Positions 4,416 to 26,052 of a stretch of 27,546 nucleotides of DNA are shown piece after piece (within the stretch, counting starts at the first letter, position 1; the number at the start of each line of letters is the position of its first letter). Under the pieces are notes generated by a model, which was given only the letters and a program-made list of their open reading frames with translations, was not told the DNA's origin and ran no database searches. This DNA comes from a virus, in IMG/VR virus record IMGVR_UViG_3300042314_000512, positions 1 to 27,546 of that record; one strand, given 5' to 3'. A program made the translations under genes and the position numbers.

Positions 4416-4820
4416 GTGATTGTATTGGATACGTTTTTAATTGTGGCTATGCCCATCTTGGCAACTCTATATGTTCACGCTATTATTCGCAGGGCAGATG
4501 GCAAAAAGAAAAAGAAATCAATGCCTGTTAAAAAACAAAGCGACAACCTAGCCCTATTTAACGATCGCATTCTGGCAATTTTAGAAAGCCAAAAGACACC
4601 CAAGACCCAGTCCACAGACTATATAGCGAGAACTAACGTGAGGGCAATCGTTGTCGAAGATCAAATATACTGGATATCTGACAACGCCTTTTATACCGCA
4701 AACATGGTTGACGGAAATGTTGAAGAAAATTCTACAAGATTAGTTGACACAATGACCATGGATAAGGTACAATTGGAGAAGATGATATTTATTGTTGACA
4801 AGCTTAGGGAAGGTGAATAG
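4416..4820 (+). CDS. Unknown protein with one N-terminal membrane segment
   Basis: A 134-residue protein. Residues 2-24 form a hydrophobic segment, followed by RRADGKKKKK, a positive stop-transfer patch, then a soluble mixed domain. I chose GTG 4416 because the -10 box points to it; the ATG at 4449 would cut the membrane segment in half. The topology suggests N-out/C-in anchoring with a cytoplasmic domain. No family recognised. Confidence 0.6.
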   Translation: MIVLDTFLIVAMPILATLYVHAIIRRADGKKKKKSMPVKKQSDNLALFNDRILAILESQKTPKTQSTDYIARTNVRAIVVEDQIYWISDNAFYTANMVDGNVEENSTRLVDTMTMDKVQLEKMIFIVDKLREGE

Positions 4821-4821
4821 T

Positions 4822-5172
4822 ATGATCATAGCAATTCAGGGAACAAAAAGTTTTACTGACTACTCGGTATTTTTGAGAGCAATGGGCACGGCTATGTCCA
4901 ACCTAGATGAAAACGATAAAGAAGTTTTGATATACTCTGCTGGCCCATATCAGATTAATGCCATGGCCCAAGAGTTTTCAAATGTTTCGGAGCGTAGTCT
5001 AAAGGCACGTGGAATTAAGATTAAGTTTAACAAGATTCCACCAAGCTGGATAGAAAATAATATTCACGATATCGGCTACTTTGCATACTTTAGCAAGCCA
5101 AAAGAACCAGTATCAAAACTGGTAGACCTTGCCGATGCAAAGAGTGTTGAAGTCGGAGTCTACAGATACTAA
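4822..5172 (+). CDS. Unknown protein, Rossmann-like start
   Basis: A 116-residue protein beginning MIIAIQGTKSFTDYSVFLRAM. The hydrophobic strand followed by G-T-x-S-F and an amphipathic helix resembles the first beta-alpha unit of SLOG/DUF2493-type nucleotide-binding proteins, and a later strand VLIYSAGPY could be the second unit. This fold reading is inference. The ATG at 4822 has GGAAGGTG upstream, making it the better start. It is in the same transcription unit as the gene at 4416. Confidence 0.6.
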   Translation: MIIAIQGTKSFTDYSVFLRAMGTAMSNLDENDKEVLIYSAGPYQINAMAQEFSNVSERSLKARGIKIKFNKIPPSWIENNIHDIGYFAYFSKPKEPVSKLVDLADAKSVEVGVYRY

Positions 5173-5185
5173 AATAGGAGAGATT

Positions 5186-5395
5186 GTGTTAATCAATTCA
5201 CTAAAAAAGATGGAAGAAATTGTTGAAAATAACAAAGACCTTTCATGGGATGGCTGGACAGTCATCGAAAACAAGACCAGAGAAAACGGTGCAATGTCAA
5301 AAGACGGAGCGTATGTTGATGGAAAGTGGATCGTACAGAAGCGTTACGATGCAACTACCAGTGGTTGGGAGATTCCAAATAAGTTCATGAGGTAA
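5186..5395 (+). CDS. Unknown small protein (69 aa)
   Basis: The start is taken as GTG 5186, 5 nt after AGGAG at 5176-5180, because the earlier in-frame ATG lies inside the preceding gene. The protein has a short basic N terminus and a compact C-terminal half with several Trp residues (SWDGWTV, GKWIVQKRYD, SGWEIP), which reads like a small beta-rich fold. Not recognised. It is followed after 2 nt by the WhiB-like gene. Confidence 0.5.
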   Translation: MLINSLKKMEEIVENNKDLSWDGWTVIENKTRENGAMSKDGAYVDGKWIVQKRYDATTSGWEIPNKFMR

Positions 5396-5397
5396 TC

Positions 5398-5700
5398 ATG
5401 GATAAGGACGATTGGAAAGATGACGCAAGTTGTAAGGGCTTCGACACAGAAATATTCTTTGACAAGTATGAAGAAGATCTGGAGCTTAGACCAGCAGTAG
5501 ACGAATTATGCTTTCACTGCCCTGTTGTTAGACAATGCTTTGCTGTTGGGATTTCCCAAAAGGCTATCGGGGTTCATGGTGGGGTATACATGGAAAATGG
5601 AAAAATATCCAGAGAGTTCAATAAGCACAGAACAAAGGCTGACTGGGCAGAGGTTTGGCAAAACCTTACAATGGATACTAACGAGCAGGACAAGAAATGA
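5398..5700 (+). CDS. WhiB-like iron-sulfur transcription regulator
   Basis: A 100-residue protein with the Wbl cysteine pattern C12, C38, C41 (CxxC) and C47, which binds a [4Fe-4S] cluster, then the beta-turn GVHGGVY (residues 58-64) and a basic C-terminal region. Wbl proteins are confined to actinobacteria and their phages and work by binding domain 4 of the housekeeping sigma factor. Here the Trp of the usual G[VI]WGG turn is His60. It overlaps the next gene by 4 nt (ATGA). It could tune host or phage sigma-A promoters, or block a host Wbl as reported for a mycobacteriophage WhiB protein. Confidence 0.9.
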   Translation: MDKDDWKDDASCKGFDTEIFFDKYEEDLELRPAVDELCFHCPVVRQCFAVGISQKAIGVHGGVYMENGKISREFNKHRTKADWAEVWQNLTMDTNEQDKK

Positions 5701-6143
5701 TCAGAATTGCACATCGTGGAAACACGTTAGGGCCACAACAGTTCCCTAGCAATGAAAACGAGCCACACATGCTTGTTGGTGCGATTGCCAGAGGGTTTGA
5801 TGTAGAGGTAGATGTTTGGTATGTTAATGACCAAATCTTTCTTGGGCACGATTCCCCTACACATCTTGTTGACAAGCAGTTTCTAACAGACATTGGCGAC
5901 AATGCATGGTTTCATTGCAAGAATGTGGAGGCACTTGACATGTTTGTTGAAGACCTGCCTTATCTCAGATACTTCTGGCACGAAACAGACAAACACACAC
6001 TAACAAGCAATGGCTACATCTGGACATACCCTGGCAACACAATTACTAAGAATTCTATCTTGGTTTATCTTGGCAAGCCAGATCTATCTAAGTTTCAGGT
6101 AATGCCATATGCAATTTGCAGCGACTATGTAGGAGAGTTTTAA
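5697..6143 (+). CDS. Short GDPD/PI-PLC-like phosphodiesterase homologue
   Basis: A 148-residue protein with the glycerophosphodiester phosphodiesterase metal-site pattern: H6-R7-G in IAHRGN, E37-x-D39 in DVEVDVW, and H51 in FLGHDSP. Members hydrolyse glycerophosphodiesters using a divalent metal within a TIM barrel. At 148 residues it is much shorter than the usual 230-300, so it is a partial barrel or a specialised short form. The second half (FHCKNVEAL, WHETDKHTLTSNGYIWTYPG) keeps strand-like spacing. It may act on teichoic acid or lipid head groups, or on a sugar phosphodiester; this is inference. Confidence 0.65.
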   Translation: MIRIAHRGNTLGPQQFPSNENEPHMLVGAIARGFDVEVDVWYVNDQIFLGHDSPTHLVDKQFLTDIGDNAWFHCKNVEALDMFVEDLPYLRYFWHETDKHTLTSNGYIWTYPGNTITKNSILVYLGKPDLSKFQVMPYAICSDYVGEF

Positions 6144-7968: not shown

Positions 7969-8898
7969 ATGCCATATCATGTTGGAGAAAAGGGATCATA
8001 CGGTTGCTCGGGTTACCCTGCCCTAAAAGATGACGGAACCGTAATGGGTTGTCACGACACTGCCGAAGAGGCAGCTAATCAAATTTATGCTATCAACCAG
8101 TCCGAAGGTAACGTTGACAAGGTAGCACCATGCTGGGATGGCTACACCCAGAGAGGAATGAAGCCAGGTGAGGGCGGAAGAATGGTTCCAAATTGCATCC
8201 CAGTTGCTAAAGCATATCGTGCAATTACCGAAGGTGATTATGTTATGGGCAGCACATCTGAGGGCATTGTCGTTGGCCAAGTAGAGCACGTTATGCGTGA
8301 GGGTGGCATCTATGGCATCCCTGGCACAGAGTACGCTATTCAATCAACTCCAGAAAATCCAGCCATGGCTGTAAGAATGTTTGAGCAAGAAGAAGATGGA
8401 AAGTATTGCCCAACAGCATACTCAATTGGAATGCTACACAACAACGCAACCATTGTTGAGATTGAAGTTGAACTTGAAGAAGAAGACGAATACGAAGATG
8501 AAATGGAAAAGGCTGAGGGATACTCTCCACCAGCAGGTGCACGTGCAGCAGCAAGACGTGCAATTAAATTTAAAGAAGATGGCAAGGCCACAGGTGCAGG
8601 AACAGCGGTAGGCTGGACAAGAGCAGGACAACTCGCAAGAGGAGAGACACTATCTCTAAGCACTGTTAAGCGTATGTTTTCATACTTCTCACGTCACGAA
8701 GTAGATAAAAAGGGCAAGGACTGGGGCAACCAGGCAAACCCATCAAACGGATACATCATGTGGCTTGCATGGGGTGGCGACGCAGGATTCTCTTGGTCAC
8801 GTGGTATCGTTAACCGCATGAAAGATAAGGCAATCTTTGCTGACTTTGGCAAAGACTACACTAAGCACACATCACTAGACTCAATTTGGAAAGACTAA
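7969..8898 (+). CDS. Conserved two-part phage protein of unknown function
   Basis: A 309-residue protein. The N-terminal part (1-40) has a [19 protein letters not shown] block with two cysteines; the middle reads as a small beta domain (residues about 75-165); a very acidic linker ([16 protein letters not shown]) follows; the C-terminal part (about 190-300) has [37 protein letters not shown] and RGIVNRM. I know that C-terminal pattern from phage proteins, sometimes next to or fused with XkdF-like proteases or other head proteins, but its role is not established. The start at 7969 is chosen because the -10 box lies 6 nt upstream. It is followed by gmd after 2 nt. Confidence 0.65.
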
Positions 8899-8900
8899 TA

Positions 8901-9932
8901 ATGAAAAAAGCATTGATTACTGGCATTACTGGCCAGGATGGCTCATATCTTGCAGAACTACTTCTTAACATTGGCTATCAAGTCCACGGTATCGTAAGAA
9001 GATCGTCAACAGATAACCTAGTTAGACTCAAAGGTATCTTGCACGATGACAACCTGTTCCTTCACCAAGGCGACCTAACAGACTCTGCATCTATTACAAA
9101 CCTAATTAAGATTATTGAGCCAGACGAGATTTACAATCTTGGTGCTCAGAGTCACGTGCAAGTGTCCTTTGACACAGCAGAGTTTACAGCAGAAACAGAT
9201 GCTCTTGGTGCACTACGCATTCTTGAAGCAATCAGAGTTCTTGGCTTAAAAGATACAAGATTCTATCAGGCATCTACATCTGAAATGTTTGGCAAGGTAG
9301 AAGAGGTTCCACAAAAGGAAACCACACCATTCTATCCAAGATCTCCATACGGTGTAGCAAAGCTATACGCACACTGGATTACAAAGAACTATCGTGAATC
9401 TTATGGTATGTTTGCTACCAGTGGAATTCTGTTTAACCACGAGTCACCTAGACGTGGAGCAAACTTTGTGACAAGCAAGATTGTTTTGTCTCTTAATGCT
9501 ATTAAAGAGGGTACTATGGATACCCTTGAACTTGGCAACCTAGATGCTCTACGTGACTGGGGACACGCTAAAGACTTTGTATACGCTATGTGGCTCATGC
9601 TTCAGGCTGACGAGCCAGACGATTACGTTATTGCAACAGGAGAGCAGCACTCAGTTCGTGACTTCGTAAATATTGCATCTAAGTATTTTGGTTTTGATAT
9701 TGAGTGGCAAGGAACAGGCGTAGACGAGATCGGTATCGACAAGAATACTGGCAAGACTATCGTAAAGGTAAACCCAAAGTTCTTTAGACCAGCCGAGGTA
9801 GAGACCCTGCTAGGAGATGCCACAAAGGCAGAGCAAAAACTAGGATGGTTCCGCAAGCGATCATTCACAGACTTGGTAGAAGATATGTGCGAGAACACAC
9901 CAAAGATCTTCCCAAACTATTCAGCAGAATAA
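8901..9932 (+). CDS. gmd: GDP-mannose 4,6-dehydratase
   Basis: A 343-residue extended short-chain dehydrogenase. It shows the NADP-binding [14 protein letters not shown] (residues 8-21), RRSSTDN, the catalytic S-T-S-E128 segment, and Y150-xxx-K154 in SPYGVAK, then the [12 protein letters not shown] substrate segment, all diagnostic for Gmd. It converts GDP-D-mannose to GDP-4-keto-6-deoxymannose, the precursor of GDP-fucose, rhamnose, perosamine and 6-deoxytalose. Length is typical. No downstream epimerase or reductase (fcl, rmd, per) is in the window, so the product sugar is open. I chose ATG 8901; the TTG at 8886 lies inside the upstream gene. Confidence 0.95.
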
Positions 9933-10592: not shown

Positions 10593-10886
10593 ATGATTAA
10601 ACCTTTAGAAGACAAGGTAGTAGTAAAGCCAATTGAAGAAGTAGAGAAGACTTCTGCATCTGGTCTTATCATTACAAAGATGGAAAAAGAAAAGCCAACC
10701 GAAGGAGTTGTTGTAGCAGTTGGCTCTGGTGCAACGTTTGCTGACGGAACAAAGATGACTATTGACCTACAGATTGGTGACAAGGTTATCTACTCTAAGT
10801 ACTCTGGTACTGAAATTGAGCACAATGGAGACAGCCTAGTCATCATGCCATACCGTGACATCTTTGCGGTGATTACAAATGATTAG
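10593..10886 (+). CDS. groES: GroES-like co-chaperonin (Cpn10)
   Basis: A 97-residue protein, the normal Cpn10 length. It starts IKPLEDKVVVKPIEEVEKT, followed by the mobile loop SASGLIITKMEKEKP that docks on GroEL, then the GVVVAVGSG and GDKVIYSKYSGTEIEHNGDSL beta-barrel segments. No GroEL is in the window, so it probably replaces host GroES on the host GroEL ring, as T4 gp31 does for capsid folding; that role is inferred. It overlaps the next gene by 8 nt. Confidence 0.92.
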   Translation: MIKPLEDKVVVKPIEEVEKTSASGLIITKMEKEKPTEGVVVAVGSGATFADGTKMTIDLQIGDKVIYSKYSGTEIEHNGDSLVIMPYRDIFAVITND

Positions 10887-11102: not shown

Positions 11103-11792
11103 TTGCAAAATCAAATCAATGTATTGGACAAGGGATATGTACGTCTTGTTGACACTCTTGGCAGCGATCTATCTATCGTTAATGCTGCACGTGTATCTTA
11201 CGATAAAGAGTCTGAAGTCTTTACCGACAAAGACTCAAAGCTCATTGGCTTCCTCATTCGTGAAGGCCACACGTCACCGTTTCGCCACGCTGCACTTACA
11301 TTCGAAGTTTATGCACCGCTATTTGTTGCAAGACAGTGGTGGAAGTACGCAGTCTCCAGCACACACGTAGACGATCAAAATGGCTGGAACGAATCTTCTC
11401 GTAGATATATTACAGAGCAGGAAGAGTTCTACGTTCCATCTGCATCGTCTTGGCGTAGCAAACCAGAGAACAGCAAGCAGGGTAGCGGAGAACCAGTTGA
11501 CTCAAGCGTTGGGTTCTACTACACAAACAAACTTAGTGAGAACATTAACAGTGCCGTGGCAACCTATCACGAGGCTATGAAAGATGGCATTGCTCCAGAG
11601 ATTGCTCGTCTATTCCTACCAGCCTATGCCATGTATGTTCGTTGGCGTTGGACTGTATCTCTACAGGGCGTAATGACATTCCTTGATCAAAGACTAGAGC
11701 ACGATGCACAAAAAGAAATTCAAGAGTATGCTCTTGCCGTCAAGGATCTTTCTCACTCTGCATTCCCAGAAACCTTTAAGGCGTTGCACTAA
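11103..11792 (+). CDS. thyX: Flavin-dependent thymidylate synthase (ThyX)
   Basis: A 229-residue protein of the ThyX family, which makes dTMP from dUMP using FAD and methylene-tetrahydrofolate. Visible: EGHTSPFRH (54-62), FVARQWW (74-80), NESSRRY (96-102), and the C-terminal FLDQRLEHDAQKEI. The classical RHRx7S signature is altered to WKY with an insertion of about 8 residues (KYAVSSTHVDDQNGW) before NESSRRY; I know comparable variants from actinophages. The usual N-x-R near the C-terminal domain reads SLQ. The start is TTG 11103 with AGGA upstream; no better start precedes the conserved region. It is followed directly by a dNMP kinase. Confidence 0.88.
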   Translation: MQNQINVLDKGYVRLVDTLGSDLSIVNAARVSYDKESEVFTDKDSKLIGFLIREGHTSPFRHAALTFEVYAPLFVARQWWKYAVSSTHVDDQNGWNESSRRYITEQEEFYVPSASSWRSKPENSKQGSGEPVDSSVGFYYTNKLSENINSAVATYHEAMKDGIAPEIARLFLPAYAMYVRWRWTVSLQGVMTFLDQRLEHDAQKEIQEYALAVKDLSHSAFPETFKALH

Positions 11793-12849: not shown

Positions 12850-13533
12850 CTCGTACATCGTAGGCTCAGGAAACATATCCTTAAGAACATGCTTGTAAAT
12901 AGTTTGGAAAGAACCATCCTCACAAGAAATGTATGGGAGTTCCGAATCTAGAAAGTTGTGAGACCTTCTAGCAAGCCTACTACCATTTGAGTACGTCTTT
13001 ACATCTGGTATATACTCCCCACCAATACCAGCATGATTGCCATAGGTTGATCTTGGTAGACTTTTCTTTACAATCGTTTCTCTGAGCTTGGTTCTATTGA
13101 ACGGCAAAGGAATGTGGATGTCATAATCTAGTGGCTCTTGTATGCCATCATTAACTAAATTATTATATGTTTTAGACAACAACCTATTGTACGAGGATGT
13201 AGGGTTAAGATCATAATAACTATTTATCTTATCTTTCAATGGTCCACCGTGGTAAACAGGCACGGTATCCAAAGGCCTAACCACAAAGAAGTCATCATTC
13301 ATCATAATAAAGTCATCACTAATTCGATCATCAAATGCGATATGTGTAATAAGGTTATGAATGTTATTGAACTTAGATGACACGTCTGGCACAGATATAA
13401 AATCACCAGTATACCATCCAGGCTTGTACCCCACAACCCACACACGGCCTTCTGGCAGGTTTTTAACTACAGATCGTAGAGAATACCGTAGTTCTTCGTT
13501 ATTGCCTTTACGGCAGATGTAGACTATATCCAT
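12811..13533 (-). CDS. Stealth-like sugar (phospho)transferase
   Basis: A 240-residue protein. It starts MDIVYICRKGNNEELRYSLRSV, matching the ELRYSLRSV core of Stealth proteins, and has FIMMNDDFFVVRPLD (about residues 75-89), the family's NDD motif. Stealth enzymes transfer hexose-1-phosphate to build phosphate-linked capsule polymers, as in meningococcal capsule. The C terminus is odd: the last 13 residues (about ECPRQESNLRPRD) are encoded on the antisense strand of tRNA-Arg, and the stop codon comes from its anticodon loop. That tail is likely an accident of position. It is the last gene of the minus operon starting at pstS or downstream of it. Confidence 0.7.
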   Translation of the reverse strand: MDIVYICRKGNNEELRYSLRSVVKNLPEGRVWVVGYKPGWYTGDFISVPDVSSKFNNIHNLITHIAFDDRISDDFIMMNDDFFVVRPLDTVPVYHGGPLKDKINSYYDLNPTSSYNRLLSKTYNNLVNDGIQEPLDYDIHIPLPFNRTKLRETIVKKSLPRSTYGNHAGIGGEYIPDVKTYSNGSRLARRSHNFLDSELPYISCEDGSFQTIYKHVLKDMFPEPTMYECPRQESNLRPRD

Positions 13534-13541
13534 GCTGCCAA

Positions 13542-13988
13542 CTATTCGCAGATGTATGTAAACGACATGTGGAACTTGTCTGCCGTTGTAAGGTTTATTG
13601 GGCTATTGTGGTCAAAGGGTTCGTCCTTTGCAGAACTTCCAACATTCCAGATAGTCATGGCTGTGCTTGAATCCGATAGATGACCCTTGATGCTATAGTG
13701 ATCTACACCCTGATTTACTGAGTCATGGATAGACCCACCGTAAACATCAGTGTGGTATTTTGAAGCAAACGGTAGTGTCAGAGAGTATTGACCTGTTCCA
13801 AAATTTGAAACATTTGTAAAGACAACCTCTATTTGTACAATGACCAGGTTGCCGATTTTAACATAGGACCCAGTTGCTGGGGTGTTGGTAAAAGTCAAAT
13901 CAGTTCCAGACCATACTGGAGAATAAGATTTGATTTCGGTAGTCAAGCCATCAGTGTCCCCAAAAGCTGGGTGAGTAAATCTAGCCAT
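13542..13988 (-). CDS. Tail-type beta-rich virion domain protein
   Basis: A 148-residue protein with alternating polar/hydrophobic strands. The blocks SYSPVWSGTDLTFTNTPATGSYVKIGNLV, NVSNFGTGQYSLTLPF and FDHNSPINLTTADKFHMSFTYI match a domain I know from minor tail and tail-fibre proteins of actinophages. It probably forms the tip or decoration of a tail fibre and may bind the host surface; that is inference. Its ATG overlaps the stop of the gene upstream in TAATG, so the two are co-translated. Confidence 0.6.
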   Translation of the reverse strand: MARFTHPAFGDTDGLTTEIKSYSPVWSGTDLTFTNTPATGSYVKIGNLVIVQIEVVFTNVSNFGTGQYSLTLPFASKYHTDVYGGSIHDSVNQGVDHYSIKGHLSDSSTAMTIWNVGSSAKDEPFDHNSPINLTTADKFHMSFTYICE

Positions 13989-14269
13989 TACGTACCAGCC
14001 TCAAGGTTAGTTTTGAGAACCGCCACCTTCATATTTGATCCACTGCTAATAGCGTAAAGAGAGTCTCTTCCGTTTAGTTCTATAGAGATGGCGTGATTGG
14101 GGAGAATGCGGTAGCCATAGCTTTCCGAAGATACGTTTTGTGCTCCAATATAAATGTAGCCAGAGGCGTTTACGTTTTGAATCGTAATGTCTATTCCAGA
14201 GTGAATCCCTGGTGGAGTGAGCCTGGTAGCAGTAGAGTTGCTAAGGGTAAGAAGTGAGTGAGTAGCCAT
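13988..14269 (-). CDS. Probable virion-associated beta protein
   Basis: A 93-residue protein beginning MATHSLLTLSNSTATRLTPPG, then GIDITIQNVNASGYIYIGAQ, SYGYRILPNHAISIEL and DSLYAISSG. Repeated short beta strands and a PNH.I.IEL block resemble small structural proteins encoded next to tail fibres in actinophages. ATG 14269 was chosen because TATAAT lies 6 nt upstream. It is coupled to the tail-type gene at 13542. Confidence 0.55.
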   Translation of the reverse strand: MATHSLLTLSNSTATRLTPPGIHSGIDITIQNVNASGYIYIGAQNVSSESYGYRILPNHAISIELNGRDSLYAISSGSNMKVAVLKTNLEAGT

Positions 14270-14275
14270 AAGACT

Positions 14276-14281
14276 ATTATA
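14276..14281 (-). promoter_or_regulatory. -10 box, leaderless gene at 14269
   Basis: TATAAT on the minus strand, 6 nt (AGTCTT) before ATG 14269. No clear -35. It lies between this gene and the stop of the gene at 14494. Confidence 0.55.
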
Positions 14282-14287
14282 CACTAA

Positions 14288-14494
14288 TTATTCAGACAAT
14301 AGTTTGTATGCCCAGTTAAGAACATCAAGGGCGATCTGATCATTAGCCATGTCTTTTTGTGCCAGAAGGGCACGGAACTTTTCAAAGAAAAGGATTCTCT
14401 GGTATCCCATAGAAAGATCAAAGATTTCTTCGCCAGCAGGACCAACAACATTAATTAGTCTAGTTAGCTCTTGTAGAATTTCCTCAGAGTCCAT
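14288..14494 (-). CDS. Unknown small helical protein (68 aa)
   Basis: MDSEEILQELTRLINVVGP begins an all-helical protein with a central GYQRILFFEKFRALLAQKDM and a final LNWAYKLLSE. ATG 14494 sits 5 nt after an extended -10 box, so it is preferred over TTG 14500, which overlaps the box. Not recognised. Confidence 0.6.
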   Translation of the reverse strand: MDSEEILQELTRLINVVGPAGEEIFDLSMGYQRILFFEKFRALLAQKDMANDQIALDVLNWAYKLLSE

Positions 14495-14499
14495 ACTCA

Positions 14500-14508
14500 A
14501 TTATACCA
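14500..14508 (-). promoter_or_regulatory. Extended -10 promoter directly after pstS
   Basis: On the minus strand TGG precedes TATAAT (14505-14500), then 5 nt to ATG 14494. It starts 15 nt past the pstS stop, giving the tail-like genes their own promoter. Confidence 0.65.
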
Positions 14509-14519
14509 GTATTTGTATC

Positions 14520-15563
14520 TTACTTAACGGTAGCAACTAGTTGCAATGCCTTTGTTCTTAGCGAACCAGACAGTGCCGTATAGTTAAGTCCAGAAGCCTT
14601 TGCAGGAGAGCAGGTTCTAATCATATAAGTAAGGAAGTTTCTTACAGCAGTACCTTTAGCCTTGTTTGCCGAGGCAGTTGGAGCGATTGCATAAGTCACC
14701 AATGAGTTGTTGTAACCGCCACGAACATCTTTCTTGTAGTCAATTTCAAGAATACCATTTGACGCTACCTTTTGAACTGATAGAAAAGCAGACGATGCCT
14801 TTACAGATGGCTTAACAAATTGGCCTAGTGGATTGCGAAGGGCAGCAAAAGGCAATCCCTTTGCAGCAACGTCCGATAAATCTGCGTAGCCAATTGAGTT
14901 TTTGGTTGAAGCAACACCAGCAACTAACAGTTGAGAATTGGCAGCACCGCTACCTACTGGGGCAGACTGACCTGAAGCATTTGCCCAAGCACCATTGTCT
15001 CTCCAACCAGACGCACCGTTACCTCTTAGGTAGTTGGCAAAGTTTTGAGTTGTGCCTGACGTGTCTGATCGATAGTAAACATTAATTGGGCTGTTAGGCA
15101 ACTTGGCCTTTGGGTTCAGCTTCTGAATCTCTTCGTCGTTCCAAGTCTTGTAGCGACCGTTCATAATTCCACCCAAAACTTTAGCGGTTAAATTTAGTGA
15201 AGAAACACCTTCAACATTGAACACGATAGCGATTGGTCCACCCACTAGCGGTACGTATGTAAAGTTCTCTGGCTTCTTTGCCGAAGCAGGATATGGAGAG
15301 TCAGTTGCTCCAAAGTCGTAAGTTCCGCTCAGGAAGTTATTTCTTCCAGTACCAGAACCTGTAGATGCATAGGTGATGGTGTCGGTCTTGTATGCCTGAG
15401 CACAGGTGCTAATGATACTGTTTGCAAAAGATGATCCACCACTAACAATAGATGTTTTTGCTTGGGCTGAAACAGGGGTAGTCGAAACTAGTCCTACTGT
15501 TAGGACGGTGGCAGTAATGATGGCTACGCAGTTGCGTACCTTTGAAATAGATGAAGTAGTCAT
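14520..15563 (-). CDS. pstS: Phosphate ABC transporter substrate-binding protein PstS
   Basis: A 347-residue periplasmic-binding protein. Residues 1-35 are a signal peptide (hydrophobic core AIITATVLTVGLV, cleavage near VSAQA). The phosphate-binding loops are visible: TGSGTG (69-73), ATDSP (87-90) and YYRSDTSGTT (163-172). It captures inorganic phosphate for the host Pst permease. No lipobox cysteine is seen, so it is secreted or wall-held rather than lipid-anchored, unusual for a Gram-positive PstS. Phage-carried pstS is known from marine and freshwater phages. The promoter has an overlapping GTTAAC repeat instead of a -35. The rest of the pst operon is absent here. Confidence 0.9.
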   Translation of the reverse strand: MTTSSISKVRNCVAIITATVLTVGLVSTTPVSAQAKTSIVSGGSSFANSIISTCAQAYKTDTITYASTGSGTGRNNFLSGTYDFGATDSPYPASAKKPENFTYVPLVGGPIAIVFNVEGVSSLNLTAKVLGGIMNGRYKTWNDEEIQKLNPKAKLPNSPINVYYRSDTSGTTQNFANYLRGNGASGWRDNGAWANASGQSAPVGSGAANSQLLVAGVASTKNSIGYADLSDVAAKGLPFAALRNPLGQFVKPSVKASSAFLSVQKVASNGILEIDYKKDVRGGYNNSLVTYAIAPTASANKAKGTAVRNFLTYMIRTCSPAKASGLNYTALSGSLRTKALQLVATVK

Positions 15564-15569
15564 GTATTA

Positions 15570-15602
15570 ATTATAAAAAGTATTTTTGTTAACATGGTTA
15601 AC
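15570..15602 (-). promoter_or_regulatory. pstS promoter with GTTAAC repeat at the -35 position
   Basis: -10 TATAAT (15575-15570) with ATG 15563 only 6 nt on. The -35 position is occupied by GTTAACATGGTTAAC (15588-15602). With an upstream GTTTAGA it makes 11-nt-spaced GTT repeats (GTTTAGA, GTTAACC), similar in style to actinobacterial PHO boxes but not a consensus match. An activator-dependent promoter is inferred. Confidence 0.5.
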
Positions 15603-15641
15603 AGAATCTAAACAAACAAAGAACTTTGTTTTTGGCAAGGG

Positions 15642-15670
15642 TAGACATAGACTGTGCCCAATGGTATAAT
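15642..15670 (+). promoter_or_regulatory. Promoter for the lysozyme-like gene
   Basis: TAGACA (15642-15647), 17 bp, TATAAT (15665-15670) with TGG before it. ATG 15678 lies 7 nt downstream, another leaderless start. Confidence 0.75.
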
Positions 15671-15677
15671 TGTAGGT

Positions 15678-16205
15678 ATGAAACCCATGACTAAATACAA
15701 AATACAGGCTACCCTAGCCCTATTCGTTTTGCCATTAGTGGCTACAAATACAGCACAGGCAGAGACCCCACCTCAAGATCATACCGTTGCCGTTCAGAAG
15801 GATTCTTCGATAGAGTTTATGAAAAGCCTTAAGCCAGTCTATACAAAGAAAAGCCGTCTATCCGCAACTGAGCTAAAGAGAATTCTATATTCAGTAGGAT
15901 TCCGTGGTCACGACCTCAAGGAAGCGTGGGGTACTGCGATGAAAGAATCAACAGGCAGACCATTAGCACACAATCGCAATAGCAATACAGGCGACAACTC
16001 CTATGGCCTATTCCAGATCAATATGATTGGTTCACTAGGACCTGCTAGACTAAAGCAGTTCAATCTAGACAGCAACAAAGACCTATTCAACCCATATATC
16101 AATGCCAAGATTGCTTTTAAAATGTCTGATGGTGGGAAGAACTGGTCTGCTTGGCATGGACTTACCGAATCAACTAAATCTTGGATGAAGAAGTTCCCAG
16201 AATAG
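15678..16205 (+). CDS. Secreted lysozyme-like / transglycosylase protein
   Basis: A 175-residue protein with a signal peptide (residues 1-28, cleavage after TAQA). A lysozyme-superfamily domain follows: the catalytic-type E90 in AWGTAMKESTGRP, then NTGDNSYGLFQINMIG (about 103-118) and a C-terminal NWSAWHG. This is the SLT/resuscitation-factor-like layout that cleaves the glycan backbone. Unlike the M23 enzyme it is exported by the host Sec pathway, so it would act from outside during infection. It is divergent from pstS, which is also secreted. The ATG was chosen from the -10 distance. Confidence 0.8.
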   Translation: MKPMTKYKIQATLALFVLPLVATNTAQAETPPQDHTVAVQKDSSIEFMKSLKPVYTKKSRLSATELKRILYSVGFRGHDLKEAWGTAMKESTGRPLAHNRNSNTGDNSYGLFQINMIGSLGPARLKQFNLDSNKDLFNPYINAKIAFKMSDGGKNWSAWHGLTESTKSWMKKFPE

Positions 16206-16206
16206 A

Positions 16207-16235
16207 TTGACAAACAGGTCACCAACAGGTATAAT
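16207..16235 (+). promoter_or_regulatory. Consensus sigma-70-type promoter
   Basis: TTGACA (16207-16212), 17 bp, TATAAT (16230-16235), a perfect match. ATG 16242 follows after 6 nt (leaderless). Confidence 0.88.
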
Positions 16236-16241
16236 TGACTA

Positions 16242-16496
16242 ATGGTTCAATTTTTTAAACGAGTGGTTCAAAAGCAGCAACGCCTAGTGCAGTCTGCCTA
16301 TGACCTTGGCTACGACCATGGGCTAGAATCAGGCAAGAAAGAAGCCTACAACGAGATACTATCTGTATTGAACCACAACATAGAGTCTATTGACTGGACC
16401 AGAGAAGAGCCTTTGCAGGTTAGGGATATTATTCCCATGCTTGAAAAGCACAAGAATACCAAAGATGATACATGGGAAGGGTTCAGTGAAAGCTAA
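16242..16496 (+). CDS. Unknown micro-protein (84 aa)
   Basis: A charged, helical protein: VVQKQQRLVQSAYDLGYDHGLESGKK, then a helix KEAYNEILSVLNH and a C-terminal RDIIPMLEKHKN. The GYDHGLESG segment recalls the G-aromatic repeat of the gene at 10134. Not recognised. It overlaps the next start by one base (TAATG). Confidence 0.6.
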   Translation: MVQFFKRVVQKQQRLVQSAYDLGYDHGLESGKKEAYNEILSVLNHNIESIDWTREEPLQVRDIIPMLEKHKNTKDDTWEGFSES

Positions 16497-16720
16497 TGGA
16501 CTTTAATAATATTGCTAACATGAAACTGTCTGACTTCGAACAGTGGGGGCAGACAGAGTATAACAAGGGCTACAAGGCAGCACTCGTAACAATGAGCAAG
16601 CTTCTGTCGGGAAAGATCTGTGATGATTTTAATGCTGATGGCAAGTGTGAGCACGAACTCTGTGCACAAAACTTTGAGATCTCTAATGGTCTTGATAGGG
16701 CAATTTCCAACATATCGTAA
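16496..16720 (+). CDS. Unknown micro-protein with three cysteines (74 aa)
   Basis: The N-terminal half has a GQTEYNKGYKAALVTMSKLL helix similar in style to its upstream neighbour, and the C-terminal half has CDDFNADGKCEHELC, three Cys in 15 residues that might bind metal. Not recognised. Confidence 0.55.
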   Translation: MDFNNIANMKLSDFEQWGQTEYNKGYKAALVTMSKLLSGKICDDFNADGKCEHELCAQNFEISNGLDRAISNIS

Positions 16721-16767
16721 TAAAGTTCGGGCGTAAAAGCTCGGCGGTAAATAAGAGAACCAAAGCC

Positions 16768-16796
16768 TTGACACAAGGCCTATTCTCCTGTATACT
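16768..16796 (+). promoter_or_regulatory. Consensus promoter for the gene at 16825
   Basis: TTGACA (16768-16773), 17 bp, TATACT (16791-16796). Followed by a leader of about 22 nt containing AAGGAG (16814-16819). Confidence 0.82.
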
Positions 16797-16824
16797 TAAT
16801 ACATATCCCACAATAAGGAGCATA

Positions 16825-17061
16825 ATGCTTGTAGAAATTAAAACCGAAGGCTTTTCTGCCATCGTCCCATATCTCCAGACACTTCCTGCCATGCTTGTAA
16901 TGTCTGTATCCGCAACCAATAACCCAGCAATCCAGATGAAGAAGACTATGGAACTGCTTAGGGATAACATTGCACCCGATCTTGTAGAGGAATTTGAACA
17001 GCTAAACTCACTACAGATGCAAGATCTTCTGAGCCAATGGCTTGACAATTCACTCGTCTAA
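16825..17061 (+). CDS. Unknown helical protein (78 aa)
   Basis: MLVEIKTEGFSAIVPYLQTLP, then a helical region with MKKTMELLRDNIAPDLVEEFEQLNSLQMQDLLSQW. ATG 16825 is 5 nt after AAGGAG, so the start is firm. The pattern is somewhat like small phage tail-assembly chaperones, but there is no slippery site or tape measure nearby, so I leave it unnamed. The downstream promoter overlaps its last codons. Confidence 0.6.
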   Translation: MLVEIKTEGFSAIVPYLQTLPAMLVMSVSATNNPAIQMKKTMELLRDNIAPDLVEEFEQLNSLQMQDLLSQWLDNSLV

Positions 17062-17070
17062 GAGTATAAT
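17042..17070 (+). promoter_or_regulatory. Consensus promoter for the gene at 17106
   Basis: TTGACA (17042-17047), 17 bp, TATAAT (17065-17070). A second AT-rich TATATAA follows at 17074. Leader of about 29 nt with AAAGGA before ATG 17106. Confidence 0.85.
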
Positions 17071-17105
17071 TAGTATATAAAGTTTCCGTTAAACAAAGGA
17101 CAAAC

Positions 17106-17588
17106 ATGCAAACTTTTCTTCCATACAAGTCTTTCTACCACACTGCACAGGCATTGGACAACAAGCGACTTAACAAGCAAATCCTAGAATGCTACCAGAT
17201 CCTCAAGGTTCTATCATCGAACGACCCTAAAGCTGGATGGCGTAACCACCCTGCTGTCAAGATGTGGAAGGGCTTTGAGATGGGCCTATTCCAGTATGCT
17301 ATGGTTATGATTGAAGAAGCCAACAAGCGTGGCATCAAGACAGAAAACAACCTTCGTAATCTCAACGAACTCAATGAACGTGCATACAAGGATTGGGGCT
17401 ATGGTATGCCTTTCTGGATGGACGACAAGAAGGTTATGGCACGTGTGACAACTACACACAAGGCCAACCTATATCGCAAAGATCCAGAGCAGTACTTCGA
17501 TTTTCAGGAAGCCGTAATCTCTAAGAACAACAAGCCATGCTGCGACAGATGCCAGTACTACTGGGTAACACACAAGGAGAACGCATGA
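17106..17588 (+). CDS. MSMEG_6728-like protein (possible pyrimidine-dimer glycosylase fold)
   Basis: A 160-residue protein starting MQTFLPYKSFYHTAQALDNKRLNKQ, then GWRNHPAVKMWKGFEMGLFQYA, and THKANLYRKDPEQYF. This set of blocks defines a family of actinobacterial and phage proteins annotated MSMEG_6728-like and sometimes linked to T4 endonuclease V-type enzymes that excise pyrimidine dimers. The fold assignment comes from memory of annotation; activity is unproven. The C terminus adds CCDRCQYYW, a possible zinc knuckle. A sunlit-water lifestyle would make a UV-repair role plausible. It overlaps the next gene by ATGA. Confidence 0.68.
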   Translation: MQTFLPYKSFYHTAQALDNKRLNKQILECYQILKVLSSNDPKAGWRNHPAVKMWKGFEMGLFQYAMVMIEEANKRGIKTENNLRNLNELNERAYKDWGYGMPFWMDDKKVMARVTTTHKANLYRKDPEQYFDFQEAVISKNNKPCCDRCQYYWVTHKENA

Positions 17589-17794
17589 TTAAAGTAGAGA
17601 GCGACATGCTCGTATTGGACTCGTCCTTTAGCAAGCAAGATGTCCTAGCCATCAACCACTTTGTAGAGATCGCCAGGGCACAGGAACGTGAACGCATTAT
17701 CAAACTACTAGAGAATATCTACGACTATCCAGGCGAATGGGATTACGACAATCCTATTGAATCGCTCATTTCTATTATTAAGGAGAACAGATGA
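17585..17794 (+). CDS. Micro-protein of the RIIKLLE family (69 aa)
   Basis: It starts at ATG 17585 with AAGGAG 5 nt upstream. The C-terminal half carries ERERIIKLLE, a variable 20-residue insert, then SLISIIKENR. The genes at 18096 and 18317 end in the same way. The N-terminal half is unrelated (SKQDVLAINHFVEIARAQE). Function unknown; a protein-binding module is suggested by the shared amphipathic helix. Confidence 0.6.
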   Translation: MIKVESDMLVLDSSFSKQDVLAINHFVEIARAQERERIIKLLENIYDYPGEWDYDNPIESLISIIKENR

Positions 17795-18096
17795 AATGGA
17801 CAAAGAGCAGTATAACACAGACAATCTACCAGATGGGTTCAAAGATGTCTCAAATGGTGAATGAAACCAAACTAATCATTGCCAAGGTAGTTTATTATGT
17901 TAGCCTAGTGGCTATCGGTATTGGCCTAGCAGGTATGCTTATCCTATTCCTATACTGGCTACTATCTAATCCAATGGCTTTCCAACTGTTCGTAACCCTT
18001 ATGGGTATTGGTTCAGTTGTCTTCGTGATGGGTCTGCTGTTTGGATGGACTGAGAAGTGGTTGGCTAAAAAAGCGGTATACAGGAAGAAAGACTAA
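17791..18096 (+). CDS. Two-pass membrane protein, unknown
   Basis: A 101-residue protein with two long hydrophobic helices (about residues 30-56 and 62-85) and a basic tail (KWLAKKAVYRKKD). It overlaps both neighbours by 4 and 1 nt. Size and topology also fit a holin or an inner-membrane superinfection factor; nothing else supports either. Confidence 0.6.
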   Translation: MKWTKSSITQTIYQMGSKMSQMVNETKLIIAKVVYYVSLVAIGIGLAGMLILFLYWLLSNPMAFQLFVTLMGIGSVVFVMGLLFGWTEKWLAKKAVYRKKD

Positions 18097-18320
18097 TGGA
18101 GCCAAGAGATCCAGGCTACAGTATCTTCAAAGGTGCAAAGCCAGAACCAAAGATAGTATACGAACTACCAGATGGAACAACAACTATCTGGCTTAGTGAA
18201 TACATTGAGGCCATGGTACAGGCAGAGCAAGATCGTATCGTAAAACTGCTAGAAGTCTGGTGGGAAACCGACCAAGAACTTGAAGAACTAATCGCTCTTA
18301 TCAAGGGAGAGAACAAGTGA
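18096..18320 (+). CDS. Micro-protein of the RIIKLLE family (74 aa)
   Basis: An N-terminal proline-rich part (GYSIFKGAKPEPKIVYELPDG), then EQDRIVKLLEVWWETDQELEELIALIKGENK, the same C-terminal helix pair as its neighbours at 17585 and 18317. It overlaps the previous gene by one base and the next by GTGA. Unknown function. Confidence 0.6.
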   Translation: MEPRDPGYSIFKGAKPEPKIVYELPDGTTTIWLSEYIEAMVQAEQDRIVKLLEVWWETDQELEELIALIKGENK

Positions 18321-18514
18321 ACCACAAGCCTGAATGTAATGAAAAGTGGGAGTATGACAAAGACCACTGCATTTGTAACTGGATTGACAAGGCTGAACAA
18401 CGCATTATCAAACTGCTAGAAGAACAAGGATGCGATTGCCACAATGTTTACTGCGATAAAATGCCTACTGCAGCACTAGGGTCACTTATCGCACTTATTA
18501 AGGAGGAACGATGA
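18317..18514 (+). CDS. Cys-rich micro-protein of the RIIKLLE family (65 aa)
   Basis: GTG start overlapping the previous stop (GTGA). Cysteines at CNEKW, CICNW and CDCHNVYC suggest a metal site wrapped around the shared EQRIIKLLE...SLIALIKEER module. The metal-binding half is unique to this copy. Ends with AAGGAGGAACG, a strong ribosome site for the next start. Confidence 0.6.
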   Translation: MNHKPECNEKWEYDKDHCICNWIDKAEQRIIKLLEEQGCDCHNVYCDKMPTAALGSLIALIKEER

Positions 18515-18615
18515 ATCCAATACAGGCTATATCCTATGTAGTAGCAGTTACCTATCTGGCTACGTTTGTGTACTTGATCTTCGTCTGGAACAAAGACGAC
18601 AGAAACAAGCCATAA
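18511..18615 (+). CDS. 34-residue single-pass membrane micro-protein
   Basis: ATG 18511 overlaps the previous stop (ATGA) and has an excellent AAGGAGG 5 nt upstream. The product is MNPIQAISYVVAVTYLA then FVYLIFVWNKDDRNKP: one membrane helix (about residues 5-27) and a charged tail. The ribosome site and coupling make it credible despite its size. Confidence 0.65.
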   Translation: MNPIQAISYVVAVTYLATFVYLIFVWNKDDRNKP

Positions 18616-18621
18616 AATTTC

Positions 18622-18647
18622 GGGGAATTTAAAGTGTGCTCCGTAAT
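18622..18647 (+). repeat. Bipartite GGG-N16-CCGTAAT motif, leftmost copy
   Basis: GGG at 18622-18624, 16 nt, CCGTAAT at 18641-18647 (one base off the TCGTAAT consensus). It lies 14 nt upstream of the -10 box of the plus-strand gene at 18673, covering its -35 position. This is the only copy in the plus-strand arm. Confidence 0.6.
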
Positions 18648-18660
18648 CCCTAGTATAAGA

Positions 18661-18666
18661 TATAAT
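18661..18666 (+). promoter_or_regulatory. -10 box, leaderless gene at 18673
   Basis: TATAAT with ATG 18673 6 nt on. No TTGACA at 17 bp; that position holds the end of the bipartite motif at 18622-18647. Confidence 0.6.
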
Positions 18667-18672
18667 TAGTAT

Positions 18673-18879
18673 ATGACAGATAAGTATAGATATATGATTT
18701 TTCCAGATAGAACCTATGTACTCACATATGAGGATATGACCTATGAAGTAAAGGGACAGGATATCCTTGACCAATACTACAGAGAAGCACACCTGATGGA
18801 AGCAATGAAAGAGTGGATCGTGTCTGATGAAGATGAGTTATCCACAGATGAAGACCATCTAGACATAGGCGAACTATAG
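18673..18879 (+). CDS. Unknown acidic protein, last gene of the plus arm (68 aa)
   Basis: MTDKYRYMIFPDRTYVLTYEDMTYEV suggests a beta hairpin, then a helix and a very acidic tail (SDEDELSTDEDHLDIGEL). A TTATCCACA DnaA box (18838-18846) is contained in its coding sequence at residues DELST. Not recognised; its position next to the origin-like region makes it a candidate replication-control protein, which is speculation. Confidence 0.6.
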   Translation: MTDKYRYMIFPDRTYVLTYEDMTYEVKGQDILDQYYREAHLMEAMKEWIVSDEDELSTDEDHLDIGEL

Positions 18880-18980
18880 GGATATACCCCCAAAAATACA
18901 CATAGTTATACACAGATTTGACCTAGTTATCCACAGATAAATCTTACTGGATATAAAAGTTATTAACAGGCTGTGGATAA
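18838..18980 (+). other. Cluster of four DnaA-box-like sites
   Basis: TTATCCACA at 18838-18846 and 18927-18935 (perfect), TTATACACA at 18906-18914 (one change), and TGTGGATAA at 18972-18980 (perfect, opposite strand). Four 9-mers in 143 bp next to AT-rich DNA is the pattern of a DnaA-dependent origin or of DnaA titration. A phage origin using host DnaA is inferred. Confidence 0.65.
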
Positions 18981-19092
18981 GTATAGGTTTGTATGGGTAA
19001 TAGAGCACATCAATCTTAAGCCTCGTAATCATTTTTCCCAAATCCCCTATCCCCAAATACCACATATCCTCCATATCACACATATCTCCATA

Positions 19093-19129
19093 TGTCAAGT
19101 ATGCATAATATCCCCAATTTGTCAAGTAT
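19093..19129 (+). repeat. Two TGTCAAGTAT direct repeats
   Basis: TGTCAAGTAT at 19093-19102 and 19120-19129, period 27 bp. On the minus strand each reads ATACTTGACA, containing a perfect -35. The TGTCAAG core matches the end of the cluster A mycobacteriophage stoperator, probably because both contain a -35. Confidence 0.55.
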
Positions 19130-19156
19130 TTTTTTATATAAAACATATAACTTTTT

Positions 19157-19504
19157 GGGAAAAATTTGATCATATCGTAATCTTATTTATATAAACATAT
19201 ATCTTTTTTATCAAAAGATGTGTTTGTATTTATACTAGGGGGAATTGGTATATTGTGTGGACTTTCTTATACCCTGGCCTTGCCAGCAGCCTTCGGCTGG
19301 GGGTATTTAATAAGGGTTCGTAATACCTCTATAGCTATATACACAATACATCTTGATCAAAACTTTCTGGGATTTTTTGGAAAGGGTTCGTAATGTCTAT
19401 ATATGTCAAATAAGGTTGTTTGTTATATATCTGTTATACATTCTGGGAAAATTTTGATAGGGTTCGTAATAACTTTTTGGGAAAAAAGCTTGACAGATCG
19501 TAAT
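19157..19504 (+). repeat. Five tandem copies of the bipartite GGG-N16-TCGTAAT motif
   Basis: Copies at 19157-19181 (spacing 15), 19299-19324, 19369-19394, 19445-19470 and 19479-19504 (all spacing 16). The last two are separated by 8 nt. Consensus: GGG(A)AAA, A/T-rich spacer, usually AGGG or similar, TCGTAAT. All face the same way. They look like iterons or operators; the same motif recurs at minus-strand promoters further right. Confidence 0.75.
19269..19306. other. Perfect three-way-junction palindrome
   Basis: An outer stem ATACCC (19269-19274) with GGGTAT (19301-19306) encloses two hairpins: TGGC/GCCA (19275-19278, 19282-19285, loop CTT) and CAGCC/GGCTG (19287-19291, 19295-19299, loop TTC). 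All 15 pairs are Watson-Crick, with single unpaired bases at 19286 and 19300. It can form as DNA cruciform or as RNA on either strand. It overlaps one copy of the bipartite motif. Confidence 0.65.
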
Positions 19505-19587: not shown

Positions 19588-19863
19588 TTACTCTAAACTA
19601 GAACCTAAGACATCATCTAGTGTTTCGAACCCTGTATCTTCTATACCGAGTGTAGACAATAGTATCTCAAATGTCTCTTCGATAAACATCGAACCAGCAT
19701 TCTTGATTTCTACTAGACCCTCTGTATACAGGAATGCCAAAGGAAGCCCGACATCATTATACTCAATGAAGTCTTCGAACTGACTATCCTTTTTATATGT
19801 TATCCATAGGTCAGATAGGATTGCTGCCTTTGCATCTAAACTTGTCTTAGGCAGTTCGTTCAT
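19588..19863 (-). CDS. Conserved actinophage-type unknown protein (91 aa)
   Basis: It begins MNELPKTSLDAKAAILSDLW and has FEDFIEYNDVGLPLAFLYTEGL, a combination I associate with small conserved proteins of phages of actinobacteria and cyanobacteria. All-helical, acidic C terminus. Last gene of the minus arm before the convergent region. It overlaps its upstream partner by ATGA. Confidence 0.65.
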   Translation of the reverse strand: MNELPKTSLDAKAAILSDLWITYKKDSQFEDFIEYNDVGLPLAFLYTEGLVEIKNAGSMFIEETFEILLSTLGIEDTGFETLDDVLGSSLE

Positions 19864-21441: not shown

Positions 21442-21945
21442 GGCTTTCCAAGCATTTAGATAAGTCTCTTCGCTAGGAAGTTGGTCAAGACTAAAAGTGA
21501 TCGTGTCACCATTGAACCAAGAGATAAACTCACGTGTCTGATAGTTTAGGGTGTATACACCTTCGCAGAATAGACCATCCTTTTCGAATGAACTCTCGTC
21601 TGATAGTGCAACATCTTCATTAGAATAAACAATTACCTTGAGAATGTCTACGCCTGTGTCACGAGAAAGGCTTGGGTAGATAATGTGAAAGCCCTGATAC
21701 TCTTCACGAGCCTCTGCCCACTTAGTGACCTCTTGAAATCTAAACCACATCTGGTCTAACTCTGCCTGCTCAATGAAACGGCACTTAGCCAATGACTTCT
21801 CAATCTTGTTTAGCATAGTAGGCTCTGCAATGAAGTCTAGCATTCGTGTTCCTGAATAGGTTGGATAACCATCCCATTGTCCGTATTGTGCTACTCGTAG
21901 TGTTCCGTCTTTATCAATTACTTTAGTGAGGTTGCGTGTTCCCAT
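21424..21945 (-). CDS. Conserved phage protein of the MGTRNL family (173 aa)
   Basis: The start MGTRNLTKVIDKDGTLRVAQYGQWDGYP is that of a widely distributed phage protein of unknown function. The middle is helical (EKSLAKCRFIEQAELDQMW), the C-terminal half beta-rich, with GLFCEGVYTLNYQTREFISWF. Length near the family norm. It has its own promoter and leader with CCCTAACAGAAAGG. Confidence 0.7.
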   Translation of the reverse strand: MGTRNLTKVIDKDGTLRVAQYGQWDGYPTYSGTRMLDFIAEPTMLNKIEKSLAKCRFIEQAELDQMWFRFQEVTKWAEAREEYQGFHIIYPSLSRDTGVDILKVIVYSNEDVALSDESSFEKDGLFCEGVYTLNYQTREFISWFNGDTITFSLDQLPSEETYLNAWKALTPTA

Positions 21946-21974: not shown

Positions 21975-22015
21975 ATTATCTCAAAAACTGGGGAATTTGT
22001 CAATAGGTTCGTAAT
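21975..22015 (-). promoter_or_regulatory. Promoter with embedded bipartite motif (gene 21945)
   Basis: Minus strand: ATTACGA (22015-22009), TTGACA (22003-21998), CCC after it (21992-21990), 17-bp spacer, GATAAT (21980-21975). The bipartite motif therefore straddles the -35 box: ATTACGA just upstream, CCC just downstream. Confidence 0.8.
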
Positions 22016-22277: not shown

Positions 22278-22318
22278 ATTATCCCACAATTCGGGAAAAA
22301 AGTCAATACCATCGTAAT
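22278..22318 (-). promoter_or_regulatory. Promoter with embedded bipartite motif (gene 22250)
   Basis: Minus strand: ATTACGA (22318-22312), TTGACT (22306-22301), TTTTTT, CCC (22295-22293), GATAAT (22283-22278); 17 bp between -35 and -10. Same architecture as 21975-22015. Confidence 0.82.
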
Positions 22319-24762: not shown

Positions 24763-24822
24763 ATTATACAGACCCCCACTGACATTGTAAATATTCGGGA
24801 AAAAAGATCTTTGCATCGTAAT
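24763..24822 (-). promoter_or_regulatory. TGTC-class promoter with upstream bipartite motif (gene 24755)
   Basis: Minus strand, in order: ATTACGA (24822-24816), CCC (24799-24797), TTTACA -35 (24791-24786), CAATGTC (24787-24781 region), TATAAT (24768-24763), AGAGGCT, ATG. -35 to -10 spacing is 17 bp. Here the bipartite motif ends 5 nt upstream of the -35. Confidence 0.78.
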
Positions 24823-25989: not shown

Positions 25990-26052
25990 ATTTTACAGGA
26001 CACCACCGACAAAGTCAATACATTTTGGGAAACATTTTGGCCAGTTCGTAAT
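25990..26052 (-). promoter_or_regulatory. DUF932 promoter with upstream bipartite motif
   Basis: Minus strand: ATTACGA (26052-26046), CCC (26029-26027), TTGACT (26018-26013), TTTGTC-type block (26014-26008), TAAAAT (25995-25990). 17 bp between boxes; the TGTC to -10 gap is again 12 nt. Confidence 0.78.

Follow-up and report, generated by a model that had tools for sequence, protein, structure and literature searches.

Features of the convergent gap

The window, by which we mean the whole stretch of 27,546 nucleotides that was analysed, contains a gap between two convergent arms, with genes on the + strand up to position 18879 and genes on the - strand from position 19588, so that the switch in gene direction reported by the first-pass annotation was confirmed. 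The conserved last gene of the right arm (19588-19863, - strand) served as a synteny marker in relatives, and the proteins neighbouring the locus matched no PHROG or Pfam family. Host-like genes were observed elsewhere in the window, encoding WhiB (5398-5697, +), GDP-mannose dehydratase (8886-9929, +), a GroES-type chaperonin (10593-10883, +), ThyX (11103-11789, +), a solute-binding protein of periplasmic type (PBP_like_2; 14523-15563, -) and a pyrimidine dimer glycosylase (17106-17585, +).

Four DnaA boxes, three copies of TTATCCACA and one of TTATACACA, span exactly 143 bp (18838-18980), in agreement with the three perfect and one near box claimed previously. The box at 18838-18846 (TTATCCACA, +) lies within a small + strand ORF (18673-18879); it is intact in relative L105 and degenerate in the close relative L027. 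It is followed by TTATACACA at 18906-18914 (+), by TTATCCACA at 18927-18935 (+) and by an inverted TTATCCACA at 18972-18980 (-), the second and third boxes being placed at offsets -35 and -14, respectively, from the element ATCTTACTG described below. The window has no match to TTWTNCACA beyond these four, when 3.6 are expected by chance anywhere in it, and this expectation speaks for DnaA-like words having simply clustered by chance in AT-rich DNA. That explanation was effectively ruled out, since four boxes within 151 bp occurred in none of 300 first-order Markov simulations (largest simulated cluster, two), and since 113 boxes, 109 of them on one strand, were found left of the core in 52 loci of relatives against 4 matches for the reversed pattern. 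A DnaA-trio pattern (at least three NAN trios no more than 16 bp from a box) proved too permissive in AT-rich DNA. The element ATCTTACTG was considered as such a trio and rejected, because the NAN pattern is loose and the element is kept where boxes are absent.

The 68-nt G-free stretch noted beside the boxes was located at 19026-19093 (+). It is the longest of the window, the next being 39 nt, and exceeds every maximum of 200 simulations, in which the largest G- or C-free run was 62 nt. The version of this tract in relatives is weaker (median longest run of 41 for G-free and 27 for C-free). The AT-rich DNA, also reported previously, is indeed present at about 19103-19252, with 18-28% GC, and is common to the relatives at +100 to +250 (25-28% GC).

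The TCGTAAT motif at the locus and at early promoters

The sequence TCGTAAT is present 16 times in the window when 2.6 copies are expected, a count that was reached in none of 100 shuffles. Six + strand copies are found within 19023-19504. One of them (19023-19029) is part of the invariant core and lies 20 bp inside the predicted genome end, while the five others (+ strand positions 19175, 19318, 19388, 19464 and 19498) belong to an array of ATTACGA...TTTTCCC sites on the - strand (19153-19504), within the predicted terminal repeat. The first-pass annotation had described five tandem copies of a bipartite motif. The six copies are direct repeats, but a clear TGGGA(A) partner accompanies only four of them, and "tandem" is a loose label because their spacing is irregular (152, 143, 70, 76 and 34 bp). 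The consensus of 115 array sites and 34 distal sites, read in the direction of the right-arm genes, is ATTACGA(T/A)C-N5-AAAATTTTCCC(C/G)RAA. A double hairpin (e.g. CCCCCGAAGGG + CTGGCGAAGCCAGGG) was observed in the middle of the array in the close relatives L027, L029 and L030, and at about 19285-19310 in the window.

The occurrence of one motif both at the locus and at early promoters is real, several distal copies being located at predicted promoters. Distal sites in the window, L027, L029, L032 and others lie immediately upstream of TTTACA-N17-TATAAT or overlap TTGACA-N17-GATAAT. On the - strand of the window, the motif is found at a predicted leftward early promoter (TTGACA-N17-GATAAT; 21998-22015), overlapping a predicted TTGACT-N17-GATAAT promoter (22278-22318), directly upstream of a predicted TTTACA-N17-TATAAT promoter (24790-24822) and between genes of the right arm (26021-26052). 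Our first idea, an operator overlapping the -35 hexamer, was dropped; an activator-type position seems to fit the distal copies better, because many of them lie upstream of TTTACA/TATAAT. Many early promoters (24790-24822 of the window and distal sites) were also observed to contain TTTACAATGTCGGTGGG-N-TATAAT, with TGTCGGTGG as a second conserved word between -35 and -10.

The array could have a purely transcriptional function, in the form of operators or of stoperator-like sites that have nothing to do with the end or with replication. The 34 distal copies, several of them at the two promoter types above, and the single orientation shared by all copies are in line with this explanation. We regard it as plausible without favouring it, because the densest cluster sits where no leftward gene is evident, and the same is true of the near-invariant copy beside the end.

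A conserved core in uncultured relatives

Two protein scans and one pattern scan of IMG/VR identified the core in 52 distinct loci of uncultured viruses (the total is 52 or 51 according to the analysis, the small difference being accounted for by filters). In the orientation of the window, the core comprises ATCTTACTG or ATATTACTG, then AATRGAGC after a spacer of about 52 bp, and TCGTAAT(C) after a second spacer of about 16 bp. The element ATCTTACTG (CAGTAAGAT on the - strand) is located at 18941-18949 (+) in the window; it is invariant, is kept in relatives devoid of boxes, and is separated from TCGTAAT by 80-84 bp in 48 of 51 loci. The core was present in all 52 uncultured relatives found via the core itself or via synteny. 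As 33 of these loci were retrieved by the pattern scan with the core as query, the case for its invariance has to be made from the loci found through proteins; nearly all of those reaching this place carry the core, and they also retain the gene neighbourhood. Among the first 47 sequences (665 kb), CAGTAA(G/T)AT matched on one strand, nearly always at the core position, and was never found on the opposite strand. A single match to the core in bacterial genomes, in a Flavobacterium contig, was taken as chance.

The boxes are also conserved in related phages, which the first-pass annotation had made a condition of its reading: at least two are present in 36 of the 52 uncultured relatives, and boxes flank the end in nine cultured Streptomyces phages. 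They are found at offset -14 from ATCTTACTG in 28 loci, as in the window, and at -26 in 18. Thirteen of the 52 have none and keep the core. On a tree of the neighbouring DUF932 protein with 31 rows, the state of carrying at least two boxes changes six times, and well-supported branches force five or more of these changes. Because box presence changes repeatedly on this tree while the core stays, the sequence comparison indicates that the boxes are accessory and that the core is not. In several box-less relatives (L007, L015, L016, L020, L039, L042, L046 and L107), imperfect inverted repeats such as AGAATGGCATACAGAGCTTCTGAGAGG were observed in the place of the boxes left of ATCTTACTG, and these are a possible replacement module.

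Further TTATCCACA pairs with a 12- or 21-bp spacing were observed in several relatives, mostly in intergenic positions 11-19 kb into the right arm, near the expected right end of the ~11-kb repeat or a divergent switch, in contig coordinates: G003 16006-18872 (L067), G004 21705-21725 (L056), G006 38110-44067 (L051-L052) and G013 13302-15951 (L079). DnaA is a known transcription factor, and this role, together with the extra pairs, would suit boxes that tie up host DnaA or control nearby transcription and take no part in starting phage DNA. We consider this unlikely, because a function of this kind would not require the boxes to keep in register with both core and end, and this register is seen in soil and uncultured phages alike.

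The 107-kb relative G004 encodes a DnaB-like helicase, a DnaG-like primase and DnaE; no initiator was recognised among its genes. A PF00476 polymerase was sought and nothing exceeded the cut-off, the polymerase being DnaE. An RtcB-type RNA ligase is encoded at 4624-5787 of G004 (L055). The contig ends of another relative, G003 (1-1002 and 108628-109629), share 1.0 kb of overlapping sequence (96.5% identity), which suggests a permuted assembly of a genomic unit measuring about 108.6 kb.

Mapped ends of cultured phages and the predicted end of the window's virus

By its protein matches, the window's virus is related to the Stanwilliamsviridae, the Streptomyces cluster BE phages of ~131 kb with direct terminal repeats (DTRs) of ~11 kb. 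The best cultured-phage matches belong to this cluster, with 54-57% identity for the DnaE of G004 and 53-55% for the DUF932 protein of the window. Nine cultured phages of the Boydwoodruffvirinae (NootNoot, Samisti12, Jay2Jay, Mildred21, EGole, Bmoc, Daubenski, Anedea and MindFlayer) have the same convergent gap, with DnaA boxes to the left and TCGTAAA copies to the right of the left genome end (GTGTAAT^, the caret marking the end). These nine phages are not independent, since they are related. The ends of eight BE1 phages were established from reads that share one starting base and from a 2-fold coverage (PMC5764925); for some later GenBank records, the end may have been assigned by homology. 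The published descriptions of cluster BE that we consulted do not mention the boxes.

The gap of NootNoot (NC_042009; 119910-121187) separates + genes from the - genes of the terminal repeat. It contains TTATCCACA at 120207 (+) and 120229 (-), TTATACACA at 120242 (-) and TTGTGCACA at 120262, followed by TCGTAAA at 120512, 120585, 120734, 120923 and 120958, and the position corresponding to the first base of the genome (120300) falls between the boxes and the TCGTAAA set. The exact repeat of 10,787 bp is identical to the published value (PMC5764925). The other eight phages have the same layout, with their end at GTGTAAT(G/A/T)^ or at a GTGTAATG-like sequence. Neither the boxes nor the rest of the layout was found in BillNye, a member of the Loccivirinae with a different set of genes in its repeat. 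An inverted repeat that directly follows the end, and is without mismatch in Bmoc and Anedea, was discarded as inconsistent across relatives.

Alignment with GTGTAAT(G/A/T)^ of the cultured phages gave a predicted genome-end motif, ATGGGTAATA^GAGC (18993-19006, +), according to which the genome of the window's virus would end between positions 19002 and 19003. The terminal repeat of the window is likewise a prediction, its record being a 27.5-kb fragment. A nucleotide search with the locus gave no match in cultured phages, and the common ground between uncultured and cultured cores is limited to short motifs. A profile built solely from uncultured cores gave its top score to the cultured end in Mildred21 and its third-best score to that in MindFlayer; for each of the seven remaining phages, the end scored within the best 0.9% of positions. 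The hits on cultured ends fall at the aligned base ±3, and the higher-scoring hits are mostly array positions. The contig-end positions of the uncultured records showed no pile-up at the predicted end, and all of these records are classed as linear without end repeats.

Genome end or replication origin

The most conserved feature of the locus is the core, which coincides with the mapped physical end in cultured relatives, and not the boxes. A genome end was not among the readings considered in the first-pass annotation. In our view, the locus is probably a genome-end element (terminase/terminal-repeat) marking the left end of a long-DTR phage, with an accessory DnaA-box cluster outside the repeat and regulator sites inside it. 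In the concatemer, the locus would join the unique right portion of the genome, with its + genes, to the beginning of the DTR, with its - genes, and the arms would converge for this reason. The terminase would recognise the core (ATCTTACTG ... AATRGAGC ... TCGTAAT) and cut at about 19002^19003. On the unique side, most members have DnaA boxes of the host type, 2-5 in number and constant in register; the DTR side has an AT-rich stretch and the array of putative regulator sites, which are also located at early promoters. Host DnaA, if it binds there, would open the DNA near the end and allow the DnaB-like helicase of the phage to load, so that synthesis would start or be boosted.

This opening near the end is the likeliest role of the boxes; it cannot be essential, since they are absent from the 13 relatives mentioned above and from BillNye. 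Packaging and replication could be coupled at the locus. Host DnaA beside the end might even start synthesis into the terminal repeat and duplicate the single repeat copy of the junction before the terminase cut, a suggestion that we put forward as speculative and rather improbable. If true, this would be a DnaA-driven way of making ~11-kb terminal repeats, replaced in some members. To our knowledge, the way in which the repeat is duplicated at each packaging event in phages with ~10-kb terminal repeats is unsettled.

The first-pass annotation had instead proposed an origin. According to this explanation, the main function of the locus is that of a DnaA-dependent, iteron-like replication origin, and its nearness to the genome end is incidental. 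The anatomy and the conservation of a box cluster in fixed register stood up in its favour: clustered consensus boxes lie beside AT-rich DNA (+100 to +250) and a direct-repeat array, and the relative with its own helicase, primase and DnaE has no recognised phage initiator. However, many relatives lost the boxes yet kept the core, when a bacterial-type origin would have boxes in all members. The cumulative GC skew, proposed earlier as a check, has its maximum at the locus in G001, G004 and G006, the opposite of a bacterial origin, although it is confounded by gene direction. The array lacks the regular spacing of iterons, and no initiator gene was recognised beside it. The satellites MiniFlayer and MulchRoom possess their own terminase, have no genes for replication and depend on helpers from this group (PMC10690885); neither was found to contain a box cluster, an array or an end motif. 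They fit a role in helper packaging better than an obligatory cis origin, and another origin in the satellites is possible. We therefore consider an origin as the main function to be doubtful, and retain the genome end as the preferred reading.

Comparison with known systems

Host initiator sites in register with a mapped end offer a concrete way to test, in Streptomyces phages that can be cultivated, whether the start of replication is linked to packaging, and the same signature may flag the genome ends that assemblies of uncultured relatives hide. We found no paper in the open-access literature describing DnaA boxes in register with a genome end. The locus resembles a bacterial oriC by its consensus TTATCCACA boxes and AT-rich DNA, the latter lying beyond the boxes on the side that we take to be expected from E. 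coli R1. It differs by its skew maximum, convergent genes and dispensable boxes, and by the phage having its own helicase and polymerase. As in iteron origins of the P1 oriR type, DnaA boxes lie beside direct repeats that are also found at promoters, but the spacing is irregular, no initiator gene was recognised and a genome end is located in the middle.

The stoperators of mycobacteriophage L5 (cluster A) are oriented asymmetric sites between early-region genes. The sites described here are likewise oriented, asymmetric and scattered between genes of the early region, whereas their sequence is unrelated, no repressor was identified and the cultured relatives are virulent (PMC10690885). In Pseudomonas phage PseuGes_254, which has DTRs, software predicts an origin that contains DnaA boxes (PMC11512268); that origin, a prediction only, is located at 70.5 kb of a 95-kb genome. 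Comparison with the cluster BE phages showed that the window locus is AT-richer, that TCGTAAT replaces TCGTAAA, that its end is predicted by alignment and not mapped, that it has the ATCTTACTG element where NootNoot has none, and that window-type boxes are in tandem on one strand while BE boxes face each other. Both have a convergent gap with boxes on the unique side, TCGTAA(A/T) on the repeat side and TAAT^ between them, and the ~107-117-kb relatives also have DnaE, DnaB-like and DnaG-like genes.
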